Assembly (NCBI RefSeq): GCF_036711975.1
Contig: NC_091966.1
Span: forward strand, 23,691,501 to 23,755,500
Source of the DNA: Onthophagus taurus
Taxonomy: Eukaryota; Arthropoda; Insecta; Coleoptera; Scarabaeidae
Direction: 5' to 3'
Length of the DNA stretch: 64,000 nt
The position numbers and the translations under genes are program-made. Shown piece after piece: positions 3,171 to 54,233 of the stretch. The notes under the pieces are model-generated. The model was not told the origin of the DNA and searched no databases. It saw only the letters and a program-made list of their open reading frames with translations. How positions within the stretch are numbered: the first letter of the stretch is position 1; each line of letters starts with the position of its first letter.

Positions 3171-6100
3171 GTATGTTCAATAAATAAATGGGTATATTAA
3201 TTAAAACAATATTCCATCAAATATTGTTTTTAACACACAGGAATAATTATAGCCAGCATATTGTTTTTGAAGTTATTAATTACTATTATTTTATTATTTT
3301 CTATTTCTACTATCTAAAATGTAAACAATTTTATAATTTTCTCACAATATTTCAAAGAAGATACTTATTTAATTCCATCAACGGTTACTCTTGGGATGAT
3401 ACGAAATATGACGATATGTTTCATTAATTTCATTATACTTACACAGGCAGTTAAAAAGTTTATTGTTCATTTGTTCATTGATTTAATTTGTTGTATAAAA
3501 AGATGTCCCACACGAACAGTAATTGTATAAGAGACAAGAATTAAATATTGCTGATCGTTTGTTGCGAGTACAGTTTTGTCTACTATTATGGGAAAATGTA
3601 CTATTGATGCTGCGATTTTAGAAAAAGTGCTTTTTACTGATGATCATTAATTGGAGAAATGCTCAATATTGGACTAAACAAAATCCAGATTTTACGCTGC
3701 GTTGGATAATAACCTGACATATTGCTTTTCTTACGATTTGTTTTCATGGGCCTACGACTAATAGCAGTATTTCAAAAACGAGTTTTTATTTATTTATTTT
3801 TGCGAATAACTCCAAAACGATACGTCTAATCAAAAACCTCTAGGAGTGAAAATAATTTTATAAAGAAATAGGGTTTTTGTAAATCAGTTGAAAAATTTAA
3901 GGGTTTACGACATAATACAAAAGTTTTAAGAAAATAACCTTTGTGAACACCCTGTATAGCATTGTTCCCGTGGTTACATATTTTCAAAAGTGACCTTAAA
4001 CGATTTCTCATGATAACGTTGCACTTCTGCCAAATTTTATCTTTCTAAAACAAACCATATTTAAGAAAATGTATAAAAATTTCTTAACTTTGAACGACCA
4101 TTTATGGGTTTAGACCAAACATTTTTACACGAATCGTCATCATTTTTACTCTAGAATTTGTGATTGAAATTATGCCACAACTTACAGAAACACCTGTAGA
4201 AATTTTTGGGTGGTATTATTTTCTAAGCATGCTCTATCGTTTTTATTTGTTGATTTAAAAATTTCGTCACTATTACTATCAATTATTGATATTTTACTGA
4301 TAATCTGTTTATTCTACTTTTAAACGACCTGCACATAAACATTTGGTGCAGTAAAAAACGTAGTTAAGTCTGTTCAATTCAATTATTACCTACAAATTGG
4401 CTATCAATGAGAACCCTTGTACAAACTTTCGAAAGAATCCGCATAATCCCAAGAATTGTCTAACTTCGTGAACATTCGTCGGTGTCTCAAAATTCATTAC
4501 AGCTTGGGTTTTTTGCTCACATGGCCGTATACCCTCACTATCAATTTCAAACCCCAGGTAATCTAGTCGCGTATGCAGGAATTTACATTTACTGAGTTTT
4601 AATGTTAAGCCTAGCTCTCGCAATACTCCCAACACTTTTCGTAGTTTCGCGATACCCTCTGCTACTGTATCACTCGGTATTAGCATATCGTCCATATATG
4701 TTAAAACAATGTTCGGTCCAATGCGTTGCACGACACGCTGCATAAGAGTATTAAATATATTTGGTGCGTTTACCAAACCAAACGGCATTTTATTAAATTC
4801 GAATTGTCCCTCGGTCGTCACAAACGCGGTTAAATGTTTAGATTGGTCATTTATCGGAATCTGATAATACCCACTCATAAAGTCTAAGGTAGTGAAATAT
4901 TTGTTACCCGCCAACATGTCTAACTGTTCGTCAATCGAGGGCATCGTCACATGTGATGTTCGCGTTATGGCATTTAAGCGTCTATAGTCTACACACAGTC
5001 TTTGCGAACCGTCTTTTTTAGGAACTAAAATCACTGGTCTTGAATATTCCGATGTTGATTCGCGAATGATGCCGGCTTTCAAAAGATCGTCTATCATAGA
5101 TTTCACTCGCTCGCGTTCCGCGTATGGTAGTCTATATGGTCTGCACCGCACTACATCCTGACTTGTAAGATCAATGTTCATAGTTACCAGGTCAGTGGTG
5201 CCAATGTCACAGGAGTTCGTAGAGAAAACTGAATCAAAAAGAACTTACCAAGTCTCGAACACTTTGAATCTCGTCACAACCTATGTCCGAATTTATGTTC
5301 ACATATTCGTTCTGACATCTTGTTTTTTCTATTCTGGAAATATTTTCGATGGTAAGCATCTTATTTTCTTTGGTTACTCTTATCCCTGGCTGATCCAATG
5401 CACTCTGTCCCACTATCATCGATTCCTGTTGCGCTTCATTTTGTACAATGAAAACAACCGCCTCGATTTTGACTCCATCTATCTCTAACAGCAATGTTCT
5501 CTTTCCTACAGATTCACACATTCCTTGTCCGAAACCTCTCAGTTTAATCTGGTGTGGCACATACTGTATGTTGATCTCAATGGCTGTCTCTTCTCTCATA
5601 GTGACGTCACTTCCAAGGTCGATGAATGCCAATGTCTTCCTTCCATCTATGTTCACGTCTTTGTAATATTCACTTTTCTCTTCCATAGTTGCAACTTTCT
5701 TTACTGATGGTTGTTTCACATTTGTGAGTGTAGATGATTTCTTTGAACAGTAGTTTGCTTTATGTCCAAATTGTTTGCAGTTGAAGCATTTGAGGCCCTT
5801 CTCCTTGAATTTACATTCAGCTGCAAAATGACCTTTTTCACCACAGTTATAACAACATTTTGGTTTCTCTCTTAGCCTGGTCTCGTCATCTTTTTGTTCA
5901 TGTTGTCTCGGCCTGCTTGTTCTTGTTTGCTTCTGCTTCCTTATCTTGTCGTAAATCTCCAGTTTTTCTTTAAATTCACTATTGTTTTTCGCTCCGTACA
6001 AAACAGTTTTGTTTGTTGATTCGTCTTCTATCCCATCTATTATGTATTGATACAATGCATCTTTCTCTATATTTCCTCGACTTCCTAGTTCTCGCATTTT

Positions 6101-46984: not shown

Positions 46985-47665
46985 GGCTGTGTTACCCTTA
47001 TATTAAAAATCGCCCTGTGTTAACGATGGCAGTCCCCAAAAATCTGATAGTTGCTGAATATACTAAAACATCCCACTTGTCGAATAGCGTGGCCTGATTT
47101 AGTTGCTCTGACTTCGTAAGGGCTTTTTTTATTCACCCCTATGTTACAAAAATCGCCCATGTTAACGACGGCACTCCCAAAAAATCTGATAGTTGCTAAA
47201 TATACTAAAACATCCCACCTGTCGAAAAGCGCCTGCAGATTTACTTACTCTGACTTCGTAAAGGCTCTTTTATTCACCCCTATGTTAAAGAAAATCGCCC
47301 TGTGCTAACGACGGCAGTCCCCAAAAATCTGATAGTTGCTAAATATACTAAAACATCCTACCTGTTGAATAGCATGGCCAGATTTACTTGCTCTGACTTC
47401 GTTAGGGCTCATTTATTCACGATGATTGATAAATATACTCTATTCGATAGCTGGGATGTTCTAGAATATTTATCTATCATCGGATCTTTGGAACTGCCGT
47501 CGTTAACACAGGGCAATTCTTTTAACATAGGGGTAAATAAAAGAGCCCTTTGAAAGTCAGAGCAAGTAAATCTGGACACGTTTTTCGACAGATGGGTTGC
47601 TTTAGTATATTTAACAACTATTAGATTTTTTGGGACTGCCGTCGTTAATACAGGTCGATTTTTTT
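46985..47665. repeat. Small foldback with about 144-bp tandem units in its arms
   Basis: Three direct units start at about 47009, 47152 and 47296 (TCGCCC.GTG.TAACGA.GGCAGT.CC, then CTGATAGTTGCTAAATATAC). About 1.3 units in reverse orientation occupy 47490-47665. A unique spacer (47430-47490) separates the arms. Same architecture as the larger element at 48126 but an unrelated unit. Confidence 0.7.
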
Positions 47666-48116
47666 ATACAGTGTCCGCCAAAACGTCAGCAACACCCGTT
47701 TTATTTCTGTTCCATTGCATCTACATTTCTGAAATTTAGTTTATGTTAGAGGTTCATACCGACCTTTCGATCTAAAGTATTTTCAAGATGGTGTACACTT
47801 TCGGTACCCCGGAAGTAGACCACAACTTCGTTATTTTAAATGGAATACTATAGTTTTTATTGCACCTTTTAATTATATGTGCAAAAATAAATTGACTTTG
47901 ATAAAAGTTATTGGTACCTAGCGCTTTTCGTTTTCGAGTTATTTTGATTTAAAATGTTTCTTGTCAATTTTCACCATGCTCTTTAAAACTCCATATCTCA
48001 GCAAACGTTCATTCAAAAAAGCTTTAAATTGGCACGATTGCTCTTCAAATGCTGTAAAATAGATTGTCATTTGCTGTATCACAGTATGTTGTACAGGTTG
48101 GTCAAAAAGTGAATTA
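47666..48116. repeat. Mariner-like terminal repeat DNA, no gene
   Basis: TACAGTGTCCGCC near 47678 and TACAGGTTGGTCAAAAAGTG near 48094 look like mariner termini. 47745-47930 matches 17655-17830. The minus-strand frame 47939-48286 runs on into the foldback arm and is not a gene. Confidence 0.4.
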
Positions 48117-48437
48117 CCTTTTTTCACTGGTGTGAAGTTATCCATAAATCCCAGCAATAAACTTAAAACATTAATAATTCCGTAACCAACACGATTTGGG
48201 TAACCAAATTTCACACACAGGTCACTCTTACCCTCAAGAACAGCTAACCACCCCCATTTGGTAAAAAAAATTTTTTCAAGCCTCACCCCCGAAAAAGGGA
48301 TGTTTTCGCCCTGATGGGCACCTTCGAATTAAACGAAATTCTACCACATAATAGAACACACTTCTAAGTATTTTTATCAATTTTCAAAACACCGTAAGCC
48401 CTAACGGTTTTCGAGAAAAAAAATCAGTATTATAAAC

Positions 48438-50140
48438 CGCGGATGGGACTTTAGGGGTGAATTTGACCCCGTTGGGCACCTTCAAAATTGATGAAATTTT
48501 AGGATGATTTAGAGGATGCCTTTAGCAATTGAAATCAACCATCCAAACACCGTAAGGTATAACGGTTTCCGAGAAAAAAAATGTGTTATTAGACACTATA
48601 GGTACGCAGCGCGGCGCGGACTTTGGGGGTGAATTTGACCCCGTTGGGCACCTCCAAAATTGACGAAATTTTAGGATGATTTAGAGGATGCCTTTAGCGA
48701 TTGAAATCAACCATCCAAACACCGTAAGGTATTACGGTTTCCGAGAAAAAAAATGTGTTATTAGACACTATAGGTATACAGCGCGGCGCGGACTTTGGGG
48801 GTGAATTTGACCCCGTTGGGCACCTCCAAAATGGATGAAATTTTAGGATGATTTAGAGGATGCCTTTAGCGATTGAAATCAACCATCCAAACACCGTAAG
48901 GTATTACGGTTTCCGAGAAAAAAAATGTGTTATTAGACACTATAGGTATACAGCGCGGCGCGGACTTTGGGGGTGAATTTGACCCCGTTGGGCACCTCCA
49001 AAATGGATGAAATTTTAGGATGATTTAGAGGATGCCTTTAGCGATTGAAATCAACCATCCAAACACCGTAAGGTATTACGGTTTCCGAGAAAAAAAATGT
49101 GTTATTAGACACTATAGGTATACAGCGCGGCGCGGACTTTGGGGGTGAATTTGACCCCGTTGGGCACCTCCAAAATTGATGAAATTTTAGGATGATTTAG
49201 AGGATGCCTTTAGCGATTGAAATCAACCATCCAAACACCGTAAGGTATTACGGTTTCCGAGAAAAAAAATGTGTTATTAGACACTATAGGTATACAGCGC
49301 GGCGCGGACTTTGGGGGTGAATTTGACCCCGTTGGGCACCTCCAAAATGGATGAAATTTTAGGATGATTTAGAGGATGCCTTTAGCGATTGAAATCAACC
49401 ATCCAAACACCGTAAGGTATTACGGTTTCCGAGAAAAAAAATGTGTTATTAGACACTATAGGTATACAGCGCGGCGCGGACTTTGGGGGTGAATTTGACC
49501 CCGTTGGGCACCTCCAAAATTGATGAAATTTTAGGATGATTTAGAGGATGCCTTTAGCGATTGAAATCAACCATCCAAACACCGTAAGGTATTACGGTTT
49601 CCGAGAAAAAAAATGTGTTATTAGACACTATAGGTATACAGCGCGGCGCGGACTTTGGGGGTGAATTTGACCCCGTTGGGCACCTCCAAAATGGATGAAA
49701 TTTTAGGATGATTTAGAGGATGCCTTTAGCGATTGAAATCAACCATCCAAACACCGTAAGGTATTACGGTTTCCGAGAAAAAAAATGTGTTATTAGACAC
49801 TATAGGTATACAGCGCGGCGCGGACTTTGGGGGTGAATTTGACCCCGTTGGGCACCTCCAAAATTGATGAAATTTTAGGATGATTTAGAGGATGCCTTTA
49901 GCGATTGAAATCAACCATCCAAACACCGTAAGGTATAACGGTTTCCGAGAAAAAAAATTTGTTATTAGACACTATAGGTACACAGCGCGGCGCGGACTTT
50001 GGGGGTGAATTTGACCCCGTTGGGCACCTCCAAAATTGATGAAATTTTAGGATGATTTAGAGGATGCCTTTAGCAATTTAAATCGACCATCCAAACACCG
50101 ACCACGGCTTCAGAGAAACAATTTCGTTATTAAATTGTAC
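48438..50140. repeat. 172-bp satellite array, left arm (10 units)
   Basis: The GCGCGGCGCGG landmark occurs at 48609, 48781, 48953, 49125, 49297, 49469, 49641, 49813 and 49985, exactly 172 bp apart; a divergent outermost unit precedes them. A one-base variant (AAAATTGATG or AAAATGGATG) alternates strictly from 48953 to 49813, implying 344-bp dimers. Each unit has a CCGTAAGGTATTACGG palindrome. Confidence 0.95.
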
Positions 50141-50456
50141 ACGTATGTAGAGCAGATAGTAGGTGCCTTTAGCGATTTTAATAGATTATGAAAACTGCGA
50201 AACTCTTAATATTTCATGGAAAAAATAAATTTTGTTAAGAAAGGCATTTTGTAGTTTTATGGGCTTTTAGTCGTTACTGGCAAAGGGTAAGAACTCCGTC
50301 ACGTGCAGTTACAAAAGGCGCAGGTATTAAGGAAAAAATATGTCCATATTTTTTGCATTATAAGTGCATTCCGGGAAAATAGTTGCCGACTTATTCGGTG
50401 TTGTTTTAGAGCGTCATACACATTTTTTAGATTTTGCCCGAAAGGTGAGGAGTAAA

Positions 50457-50472
50457 CTTATAATATATAAAG
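50457..50472 (+). promoter_or_regulatory. Possible TATA region of the SGNH-like gene
   Basis: CTTATAATATATAAAG lies about 70 bp before the ATG at 50539, with an initiator-like AGATCAGCTG at about 50491. Consistent with a promoter carried inside the element; unproven. Confidence 0.35.
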
Positions 50473-50538
50473 ATTCCTCAGCTATTGCAGAGATCAGCTG
50501 TTCTAGTTATCTCTTGTTAAAACCAGTGACCAGTGAAG

Positions 50539-51293
50539 ATGTCGACGAAATTACTGTTTTTGGGCGATAGTAATTTTTGCCGAATGCTACGTACTAGAAC
50601 TAACTACAAAGTATTTGTTCTAACAGATGTGAAATTAATTCCTACTAATGGTATATATTTTAGGACGACAACCAAAACAGTCAAGCAACGGAAAATATTT
50701 CCTCGACTTAGCAGTAGGCGGTCAAACAATACTAAAACTTTTGCGGCGCGCAAAGTGTATTCCAAAAACATGTTACCCTTGGTTTTGTGGAGATATTGTT
50801 GAACGTCATATCGTTATAATGATAAGAACTAAAAATATACTCCATAAAACATCACCATCCCAACTGAAGTCCCAATATTCTCACCTCTTCCGCTTCCTTC
50901 TTTCCTTAAATCCTAAAGGAATACAAATTTGCACAATTCCTCCCTGCAAAAACTTCGAGTCTGTGAACGTAAGATATTATAACTTCTCTGTCATGCTATA
51001 AATAAATACTCTCCATGCCTTTATAGGAAATCAATCATTACATTCGACGGTTTTGTGCTGAAAAGCAAATCAATTGTACCGACATTGAAGCAATTGTTAA
51101 CAGAACCATGATGGAAGGGTAACAAAACGTAAAAATGTTTCTTTTCTTATGTATTTAATACAAATTTCTACACAGGGATGGCATTTACTTAAATGAACAA
51201 GGGTTGGAAACGGTCTGGAACGCGGTAGCAAGTAATTATAATCATATTCTCAATCCATTACACAATTTAATTATAAGTAAAACAGACCATTAA
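50539..51293 (+). CDS. SGNH-hydrolase-like protein carried by the foldback element (188 aa, four exons)
   Basis: Exons 50539-50590, 50664-50968, 51027-51118 and 51176-51293 sum to 567 nt, exactly 189 codons, with GT-AG introns of 73, 58 and 57 bp. SGNH blocks in order: block I TKLLFLGDSNFCRM (Ser of GDSN), block II LDLAVGGQTI (Gly), block III VIMIRTKNI (GTND in the family, degenerate here), a GIQICTIPP strand, and block V GDGIYLNEQGLETVWNAV. Block V normally reads DG-x-HLN; Tyr replaces the catalytic His, so hydrolase activity is doubtful. There is no signal peptide. SGNH/esterase domains are known in some LINE ORF1 proteins, but I know of none as sole cargo in a foldback DNA element. The product may bind rather than cut. 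Intact frame and splice sites suggest recent activity or selection. Confidence 0.75.
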
Positions 51294-51344
51294 TATAATT
51301 TATTTCTTTCTCTATCAAAATTTTTTTTTCTATCAAAAGTCCAC

Positions 51345-52010
51345 CCTCCAAATCATCCTAAAATTTCATCAATTTTGGAGGTGCTCAACGGAGTCAATCG
51401 ATAAAGGCATCCTCTAAATCATCCTAAAATTTCGTCAATTTTGGAGGTGCCCAACGGGGTCAAATTCACCACCAAAGTCCGCGCCGCGCTGTGTACCTAT
51501 AGTGTCTAATAACAAATTTTTTTTCTCGGAAACCGTTGTACCTTACGGTGTTTGGATGGTTGATTTCAATCGCTAAAGGCATCCTCTAAATCATCCTAAA
51601 ATTTCATCAATTTTGGAGGTGCCCAACGGGGTCAAATTCACCCCCAAAGTCCGCGCCGCGCTGTATACCTATAGTGTCTAATAACACATTTTTTTTCTCG
51701 GAAACCGTAATACATTACGGTGTTTGGATGGTTGATTTCAATCTCTAAAGGCATCCTCTAAATCATCCTAAAATTTCATCAATTTTGGAGGTGCCCAACG
51801 GGGTCAAATTCACCCCCAAATTTCGCGCCGCGCTGTGTACCTATAGTGTCTAATAACAAATTTTTTTTCTCGGAAACCGTAATACCTTACGGTGTTTGGA
51901 TGGTTGATTTCAATCGCTAAAGGCATCCTCTAAATCATCCTAAAATTTCATCAATTTTGGAGGTGCCCAACGGGGTCAAATTCACCCCTAAAGTCCCATC
52001 CGCGGTTTAT
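51345..52010. repeat. 172-bp satellite array, right arm (4 units, inverted)
   Basis: GCGCCGCGCTG landmarks at 51481, 51653 and 51825 (172 bp apart); a divergent terminal unit follows near 51997 that mirrors the outermost unit of the left arm. Confidence 0.95.
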
Positions 52011-52379
52011 AATACTGATTTTTTTTCTCGAAAACCGTTAGGGCTTACGGTGTTTCGAAAATTGATAAAAATACTTAGAAGTGTGTTCTATTATGTGGTA
52101 GAATTTCGTTTAATTCGAAGGTTGCCATCAGGGCGAAAACATCCCTTTTTCGGGGGTGAGGGTTGAAAAATTTTTTTTTTACCAAATGGGGGTGGTTAGC
52201 TGTTCTTGAGGGTAAGAGTGACCTGTGTGTTAAATTTGGTTACCCAAATCGTATTGGTTACGGAATTATTAATGTTTTAAGTTTATTGCTGGGATTTATG
52301 GATAACTTCACACCAGTCCTTTTTTCCGCATTCAATGGCAAGAAAGTGAACATTTTAAATGGTAAGCCCTATATTTGAT

Positions 52380-54233
52380 TAGCTCATTAGAAAGGGAATT
52401 TGCCGGGAAATACCAGAAACCGATTTTTAGTTAGTCCAATCCGAATAAATACGTTCTTAACGCAAGAAATTATATGTGAAGTGGAACCGACTATTCCCAG
52501 AATCACACCTGCAGAGAAAGCAGAAGAAATTCGTCAAGACATAGCGAGAGTGCTTAAAACAACAAAGCCACCGAAATCAAACTTAACAATGAACGAAAGA
52601 AGAGCACTATGAACGATAAGGGAAAAACCAGACATTATCATCCTACCAGCGGACAAGGGGAATGCGACCGTGATTATGGACAGAAAGGAATACGACGACA
52701 AGATCAAGAGCCTTTTGGACCCAGTCACCTATAAGAAGGAAGATGAAAGAACTGGTAAAATCCATAGAAATCCCAACAGATCAACAGAAAAGCTTATTCG
52801 TACAGGCTCCAGTACCACTAAGGATATATGGATTACCCAAAATCCATAAACCAGACGTCCCACTACGCCCTATTGTCAGTGCCATAAATTCTCCCACCTA
52901 TCAGCTAGCAAAGCACCTTTCCAAGATTCTGTCTCCTTTTACAGGTAGAACAGAGTCAGAGACTCCACACATTTTGTAGAATCAATTAGGAGTATGAAGT
53001 TAGACCGTCAGGATATGCTGGTAAGTTTCGACATGGAATCTCTATTCACCAAAGTACCAGTCAAAGATGCCGTGGATGGACTTAGCCAGAAACTCATCCC
53101 GGAGGGTTTGCCCAAGTATGTCCCAGGACTAGTGGAGTACTGCCTATCGTCAACATATTTCAGCTGGAAAGGGAAATTCTATGAACAATGCGAAGGCGTA
53201 GCCATGGGATCACCTCTGTCTCCTGTGATAGCCAATTTTTACATGGAGATGTTTGAAGAGGAAGCGTTAAAGAAGAGTCCTTGGAAACCGAAGCTATGGC
53301 TCCGTTACGTCGATGACACTTTCGTGATCTGGCAACATGGAAAAGAGCAACTCCAGGCATTTCTAGACCACCTCAATTCACAGCACCCCATGATAAAATT
53401 TACCATGAAAACAGAAACTGCAAAACAGTTCATTCCTGGATGTGTTAGTCACTAGGAAGACAGATGTGGGCATGGAACTGGGAGTATATCGAAAGAAGAC
53501 GCATACGAATGGGTACCTGCAGGCTTCATTCCACCACCACCCACAACAGAAGAGGTCCGTGATTAAAGCCTTATTCCAACGAGCAGAGAGGATATGCGAT
53601 AAAGAGAACCTAAGAAAAGAAGAAAAATTCCTAGAAGATGTGCTGCAGAAGAACGGCTATACGATGAGAGATATCCGACGAGCCACCAAACCACGCAAAC
53701 AGAAGGATGACTCGGTAAGTACGACACCAGCCGGTTTTATCTGCCTTCCTTATGTTTCAGGTGTGACGGAGCGAATTGCGAGGTGTCTGAAGAAGAATGA
53801 TATCGTGGTACGATACAGTACGGTTAGCAAAATACAAAACGCTCTTCCGATAGCCAAAGACAAACTAACCCCATTAAAGACAGTGGGAGTCTACCGGCTA
53901 TCGTGCAGTTGCGGGAAATATTACGTTGGCCAAACTGGACGTAACATCGAGTGCCGCATCAAGGAACACGAGAGGGACGTCCGACTAAGAAAGATCCAAC
54001 AATCTGCGGTCGCAGAGCATTGCCACAAAGGAGGACACAGCATAGAGTTCGACAAAACCAAAGTGCTAGCAAGAAACAGACATTACTTCCCAAGATTGAC
54101 GAGAGAGGCTATAGAGATTCATCGACATGGGAATAACATGAATAGAGAAGATGGTTGGGAACTCAGCCGCACATGGCAGACCCGGATGCCTTCTCCACCC
54201 GGATTTGACAAAAACAACTTAGTTGGCAATTAG
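52380..54233 (+). pseudogene. Penelope-like element 2: reverse transcriptase plus GIY-YIG endonuclease
   Basis: 52400-52610 is the N-terminal region (ERRAL, then TGA). The RT then shows [68 protein letters not shown] and the catalytic LRYVDD box. A frameshift near 53450 moves to 53442-54233, which ends in the GIY-YIG nuclease (GVYRLSCSCGKYYVGQTGRNIECRIKEHERD) and stops at 54233. Two stops (about 52611 and 52977) and the frameshift inactivate it. It begins directly behind the foldback element. Confidence 0.9.

Follow-up and report, generated by a model that had tools for sequence, protein, structure and literature searches.

The closest described precedent for a spliced gene between the arms of a foldback (FB) element is Ssk-FB4 of Drosophila melanogaster, in which an almost complete spliced host gene is carried within an FB element flanked by 9–10-bp duplications (PMC8277862). 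Here, we describe a 4192-bp element of the beetle Onthophagus taurus, found in a stretch of 64,000 nucleotides (contig NC_091966.1, positions 23,691,501–23,755,500 of the forward strand; this whole stretch is termed the window, and its first letter is position 1). The element is a member of a young transposon family in O. taurus and carries a gene of the SGNH hydrolase type. It is probably a recently inserted copy of a foldback family that is young and apparently non-autonomous, whose gene was captured before two lineages, A and B, split, and which is likely mobilised in trans by a transposase of the Mutator-like element (MULE) type.

The Onthophagus family resembles Ssk-FB4 in combining a spliced gene with a foldback structure of long repetitive arms, in occupying several insertion sites and in having no known transposase. 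Ssk-FB4 comprises four polymorphic copies and has a known parent gene, whereas the beetle has at least 75 gene copies, an SGNH gene for which no parent was found, and two gene lineages, one of them without the catalytic residues. Tetris/TIR-220 of Drosophila virilis is likewise a foldback element with an arm unit (approx. 220 bp) in variable number, 8–10-bp duplications and no transposase found, but it apparently codes for nothing, has three complete copies and has been the origin of satellite arrays (PMC4079207); in the Onthophagus family, every pair checked contains the gene, and the 100 listed units include no free array. Muta1 and other MULEs of Aedes aegypti share the 8–9-bp duplications, the inverted and subterminal tandem repeats, the designation type 2 foldback and the many non-autonomous derivatives, while Muta1 differs in encoding a transposase and in having 12-bp subterminal units (PMC5225508), compared with no transposase and a 172-bp unit in the elements read here.

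A search of titles and abstract openings in the open-access literature, which also listed O. taurus papers (e.g. iMITEdb and the horned dung beetle genomes), revealed neither a foldback element carrying an SGNH gene nor a description of this Onthophagus family. Helitrons are not known to have arms or target duplications of the foldback kind. The SGNH hydrolase genes termed texim are carried by such a DNA transposon in fish, in few copies and in another host group (PMC4021074). A preliminary description of the window had considered a spliced SGNH-like gene as the only foldback cargo to be, to its author's knowledge, undescribed; as to the kind, this claim gives way to Ssk-FB4 and, for an SGNH gene on a DNA transposon, to the fish Helitron. 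Because Ssk-FB4 is so close a precedent, the kind of element is already known; the new points are the scale, the constancy of the gene, and an enzyme-dead lineage beside an enzyme-intact one. In the literature compared, an animal foldback element with a nearly whole spliced gene was previously represented by the four copies of Ssk-FB4, and here a gene is present in each of 45 checked pairs.

A foldback element and its family

The window element lies at 48126–52317 and is enclosed by a perfect 9-bp duplication, CCTTTTTTC. Its outer 323 bp at both ends are inverted repeats of one another (97.5% identity), and further in it has the long, unequal, inverted arms of tandem repeats that characterize foldback elements. 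Its outer parts are:

48117–48125, no strand: left target site duplication (9 bp, CCTTTTTTC), a perfect match to the right copy
48126–48448, + strand: left outer terminal inverted repeat, starting ACTGGTGTGAAGTTATCC, 97.5% identical to the right end and with many genome copies
48449–50100, + strand: left arm, 9.6 copies of a 172-bp subterminal unit (repeat analysis of the window)
51342–51993, − strand: right arm, 3.5 inverted copies of the 172-bp unit and a 56-bp fragment (repeat analysis of the window)
51994–52317, − strand: right outer terminal inverted repeat, an inverted match to the left end
52318–52326, no strand: right target site duplication (9 bp, CCTTTTTTC), a perfect match to the left copy

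The coordinates and both duplication copies of the preliminary description were reproduced, and its arms of 10 and 4 units are a rounding of these values.

Duplications of this kind are a constant feature of the family. Perfect copies flank all 33 elements read on both sides (32 belong to the 45 pairs introduced below, the window element among them, and one is C11:6221433-6231807): 29 are of 9 bp, including one at C2:8531148 that sits in a TA run and is therefore ambiguous in length, three are of 8 bp and one is of 10 bp. When left and right flanks are swapped between elements, only 2 of 1056 combinations agree over 9 bp (at most one mismatch), compared with 29 of the 33 true pairs, the other four being perfect at 8 bp (three) or 10 bp (one). 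This agreement, like the number of element ends given below, far exceeds chance expectation.

Empty sites are also present. With the flanks of the window element joined through a single duplication copy, 38 other places match across the junction at 83–95% identity without an insertion; these are the 40 first-listed flank matches less the two halves of this site itself, from the best 40 of 1119 candidates scored. The matches are equal in length by their coordinates (e.g. 299 versus 299 bases), and 31 shorter or inverted flank matches follow them in the table. A second case is aligned: the insertion C1:20395687 lies in a repeat whose other copy, in the window, runs uninterrupted through the junction at approximately 73% identity:

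3725–4141, + strand: repeat copy that is the empty site for the C1:20395687 insertion (aligned; a single GAAAAATTT at 3890–3898)

The mobile insertion proposed in the preliminary description is thereby borne out by 38 uninterrupted paralogous repeats and one aligned empty site.

Copies of the element were searched for in the 290.8-Mb, 33-contig assembly that contains the window. The 37-nt element end has 208 matches (at most three mismatches) compared with none for a reversed control, and the outer 305 bp are 99–100% identical in all 40 best of 256 candidates. The 100 end matches that were listed, all of them perfect, form 45 head-to-head pairs and 10 single ends, the other 108 lying outside the listing. 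The pairs among these listed ends span 3.1–21.5 kb (median 5.7 kb) and all 45 hold the gene core: 25 the A core, 17 the B-type stretch and three a core recognized on inspection and nearest to A, lineage A being the commoner (28 versus 17). The core itself is 98–100% identical in all 40 best of 123 candidates, a few of them partial, with one more short match. Many copies that share ends and core and, wherever tested, carry their own duplications, the pattern that the preliminary description expected of a mobile element, are thus what the genome contains. Its single-copy core is single within the element but not in the genome, where a 62-nt piece of exon 2 used as a probe detects 75 or more copies of the gene. 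Fifty of these fall on stretches with all perfect ends listed, and all but one of the 50 (C8:15937855) have an end no more than 12 kb away. The A copies are young: 30 A cores differ on average by 0.27% from their own majority sequence, although they were drawn from the 40 best-scoring of 123 candidates and are biased towards young copies. Among 18 full-length copies, counting that of the query, the B-specific stretch shows 100% identity after rounding.

The number of arm units varies among elements (e.g. 6 and 49 in the arms of C5:8925238-8936988). The two longest pairs were inspected for a transposase, this one as a whole and C8:14517474-14538957 in part, with approximately 6 kb in its middle outside the part read; they showed arms and a B core. 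The ends of the latter are 21.5 kb apart, and it probably holds inserted other sequence or a rearrangement, since its left part was without an arm beyond part of one unit. Elsewhere, locus L026 (C3:9694669-9697974; element C3:9696169, left part read) lacks a gene core, its two arms running directly into each other to form a hairpin of units.

The 172-bp unit (71-nt pattern) has 1498 matches in the genome, of which 100 were listed; 91 of these are inside paired elements and nine lie within 5.7 kb of an unpaired family end, while free tandem arrays of the unit outside elements are absent among them. Because the listed units are all in or near family elements, what looked like a satellite is, within this listing, the repeat unit of the element's arms. 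A free satellite finds no support in these 100 units, nor does the suggestion in the preliminary description that the element is a vehicle for spreading one.

The SGNH gene and its two lineages

The gene between the arms has four coding exons, GT/AG at all three introns (73, 58 and 57 bp) and a product of 188 amino acids, in agreement with the four-exon, SGNH-like gene of the preliminary description. Besides this gene the element contains no long open frames, the longest one listed (117 aa) being part of it. The features of this region are:

50464–50497, + strand: putative promoter, judged by eye from its likeness to the consensus (TATATAAAG at 50464–50472, TCAG approximately 30 bp further)
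50539–50590, + strand: SGNH-like gene, coding exon 1 (gene model)
50664–50968, + strand: SGNH-like gene, coding exon 2 (gene model)
51027–51118, + strand: SGNH-like gene, coding exon 3 (gene model)
51176–51293, + strand: SGNH-like gene, coding exon 4, stop included (gene model)

The nearest annotated protein is LOC111429034 of O. taurus, which is 98% identical across 92% of the query length. Under the projected model the frame is intact in 30 of 36 copies read (28/34 and 2/2), that is, in 26 of 31 A copies and four of five B copies, and in two further old copies the gene is broken.

The cargo product has an SGNH fold, as established by Pfam on the lineage B protein and by Foldseek on the P0001 model, and the SGNH likeness noted in the preliminary description is upheld. 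Lineage B matches Lipase_GDSL_2 (E 2.5e-12, above the cut-off) and Lipase_GDSL (7e-9), with an OSK match (E 1.6e-5) below its cut-off; the matches of lineage A are weak, at 8e-4 (Lipase_GDSL_2, below cut-off) and 0.0066, and a sequence search of the PDB with the A protein gave nothing of SGNH type. The P0001 model, built from a 21-row alignment (21 of the 75 relatives found), has a mean predicted local distance difference test (pLDDT) score of 76.6 and replaced a single-sequence fold with a mean of 36.9. In Foldseek it matches GDSL lipases or hydrolases and TesA (best E 8e-5), with 15 matches at or below 0.001, three of which are designed scaffolds. The 75 relatives include ten firefly and two leafhopper proteins, at approximately 30% identity, as well as metagenomic and archaeal or bacterial GDSL proteins. 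The firefly proteins P0003, P0005–P0011, P0013 and P0014 are divergent SGNH/OSK-type paralogs, most with motifs such as IGGQTI and IGTND.

Lineage A, to which the window copy belongs, and lineage B differ at 12 of 188 residues, and the differences extend to the catalytic site. Lineage B keeps the motifs G-D-S, G-G, G-T-N-D and D-G-I-H, while lineage A has R-T-K-D for G-T-N-D and D-G-I-Y for D-G-I-H. In the window copy GDS and GG are present, GTND has become RTKN and DGIH has become DGIY, leaving the catalytic Ser/Gly/Asn/His set incomplete; catalytic and oxyanion positions were assigned after the description of the ZfL2-1 esterase (PMC3905857). Two older, incomplete copies (L111 and L112) serve as outgroup. 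They place the changes at G72 and N74 on the A branch, and residue 154, Y in A and H in B, is left without polarity because both have a gap there.

The same outgroup assigns eight nonsynonymous, two synonymous and eight noncoding changes to the A branch and two nonsynonymous, one synonymous and 10 noncoding changes to the B branch, with four coding and three noncoding differences unpolarised. Coding changes are rarer than noncoding ones on the B branch (3/567 versus 10/274, Fisher p 0.0012), also when all four unpolarised coding changes are added to it (7/567, p 0.033), and not significantly so on the A branch (10/567 versus 8/274, p 0.31). On these few data, the enzyme has probably been under constraint in the B line and been lost by A. 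Compared directly, the two branches do not differ significantly (p 0.14), and overall dN/dS between A and B is 0.64. Within A, departures from the majority in 28 copies number 31 nonsynonymous and 12 synonymous, each copy being scored separately so that shared changes count repeatedly; this is near the neutral site ratio of 3.7. With enzyme-intact and enzyme-dead lineages side by side, the family offers a natural experiment in which to ask if a transposon benefits from a gene that it has captured.

Lineage B also has an additional 470-bp stretch just upstream of the gene that is absent from A (L062:5198-5667); in L063, L064, L065 and L068 the core match is interrupted by the same gap as in L062. 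The stretch ends in CAGGTAAG, and since this resembles a splice donor, B may have an extra 5′ exon. It resembles an insertion with a 9-bp duplication, but the flanking copies are non-identical (AACTTATAA and AACTTAATAA). The stretch is also found in four diverged copies (78–85%), which, together with the non-identical flanks, makes its loss in A at least as likely.

Proposed capture and mobilisation, and alternative explanations

The history that we consider probable begins with the capture of an SGNH/GDSL hydrolase gene, introns included, before the A and B lineages split, with the host or another element as its presumed source. Located between the ends, the gene would have been copied along with the element ever since, and in lineage A it would now be a passenger. 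The likeliest mover would be a transposase of the Mutator/Foldback (MULE) type that works in trans on the ACTGGTGTGAAGTT... ends, because the duplications are 8–10 bp long and the arms are long and made of tandem repeats; all 33 elements tested have duplications within this range, which is that of MULEs. The family is real, foldback/MULE-like, gene-carrying and apparently non-autonomous, and a non-transposon gene between terminal inverted repeats, at several insertions with distinct duplications, also gives it the make-up of a Pack-TIR or Pack-MULE. Its fresh copies in a beetle offer a system for asking what moves foldback elements.

Several observations weigh against this account. The survey of gene copies, with no genome-wide SGNH-family search behind it, did not find a parental gene. 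A profile search of the genome with PF10551 gave 16 hits, all of them at least 87.6 kb away from any listed end or gene copy, and none of them, checked against the 100 listed of 208 ends, ties a transposase to the ends; because 108 of the 208 ends are outside that listing, an element with a transposase could still be among these. At L109, the one MULE locus inspected, the ends are absent from the 5.3 kb examined. The superfamily call consequently rests on duplication length and design. Finally, the retention of the core in every pair and the conservation of B coding sequence exceed what is expected of a pure passenger. An autonomous relative was sought through the PF10551 hits, L109 and variants of the first 14 nt of the end, none of which provided one, so that the longer relative with a MULE transposase envisaged in the preliminary description was not found, as far as the listed ends go. 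The 14-nt search, which accepted any base but A at position 19 and misses relatives keeping A there, had one match, approximately 1.1 kb from a family gene copy. Locus L109 (C6:28824487-28829771) itself has an open 464-aa ZSWIM/FAR1-like MULE-domain frame and, nearby, a 301-aa frame that is DDE-transposase-like by eye.

Merlin- or P-like transposases produce duplications of approximately 8–9 bp, and a mover of another cut-and-paste type, with a foldback shape that arose independently, would agree with the lack of a MULE tied to the ends. The foldback shape has been suggested to come from different transposon lineages (PMC4079207). We nevertheless think such a mover unlikely, given that 29 of the 33 duplications here are of 9 bp and that mosquito MULEs give 8–9-bp duplications, Muta1 being classed as a type 2 foldback element (PMC5225508). 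Ordinary satellite DNA or a segmental duplication around a host gene, with a 9-bp repeat arising by chance, would account for tandem 172-bp arrays beside a spliced gene, but it is refuted to the point of having practically no probability left by 33 perfect duplications that differ in sequence, by the empty sites and by the dispersed positions of the copies. A domesticated family, many copies of which the beetle keeps for a host role such as expression in testis (reported for the teximY genes of platyfish; PMC4021074), could appeal to the predominance of intact frames and to the annotation of the gene in O. taurus. It is very improbable, since the A copies are too young to show selection and their changes are near the neutral ratio.

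More serious, if still on the unlikely side, is the proposal that the SGNH enzyme serves the transposon as one of its functional components, with an active B esterase helping the family in trans (e.g. in the germ line or at membranes) and dead A as a second-order parasite of B. It would explain the presence of the gene core in all 45 pairs, the rarity of coding changes in B but not in A, and the intact frame with SGNH residues in four of five B copies read; CR1-type retrotransposons carry an active SGNH esterase (PMC3905857). Lineage A, however, has become numerous despite lacking the catalytic residues, the two branches do not differ significantly when contrasted directly, and overall dN/dS between A and B is 0.64. 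Moreover, selection on B could concern a host function, the numbers are small, the outgroup consists of two incomplete old copies, the p values are uncorrected, and a core-less derivative with joined arms exists in L026. That an SGNH esterase is now a trans-acting component of a cut-and-paste transposon family, B supplying the enzyme and enzyme-dead A exploiting B, is a doubtful conclusion; if true, such an esterase would be the DNA-transposon counterpart of the CR1 retrotransposon SGNH esterase. Capture of the gene by a non-autonomous foldback family that is moved in trans is the account that we prefer.

Neighbouring repeats in the window

The element is inserted in a repeat that has 1119 candidate genome copies at first look. 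Adjoining the element, broken retroelement frames occupy window positions 52949–54230; one frame matches RVT_1, and by eye the frames look Penelope-like. The window also contains a second structure with inverted arms, made of 143-bp units, with 2.9 copies at 47005–47420 and inverted partners at 47487–47671.

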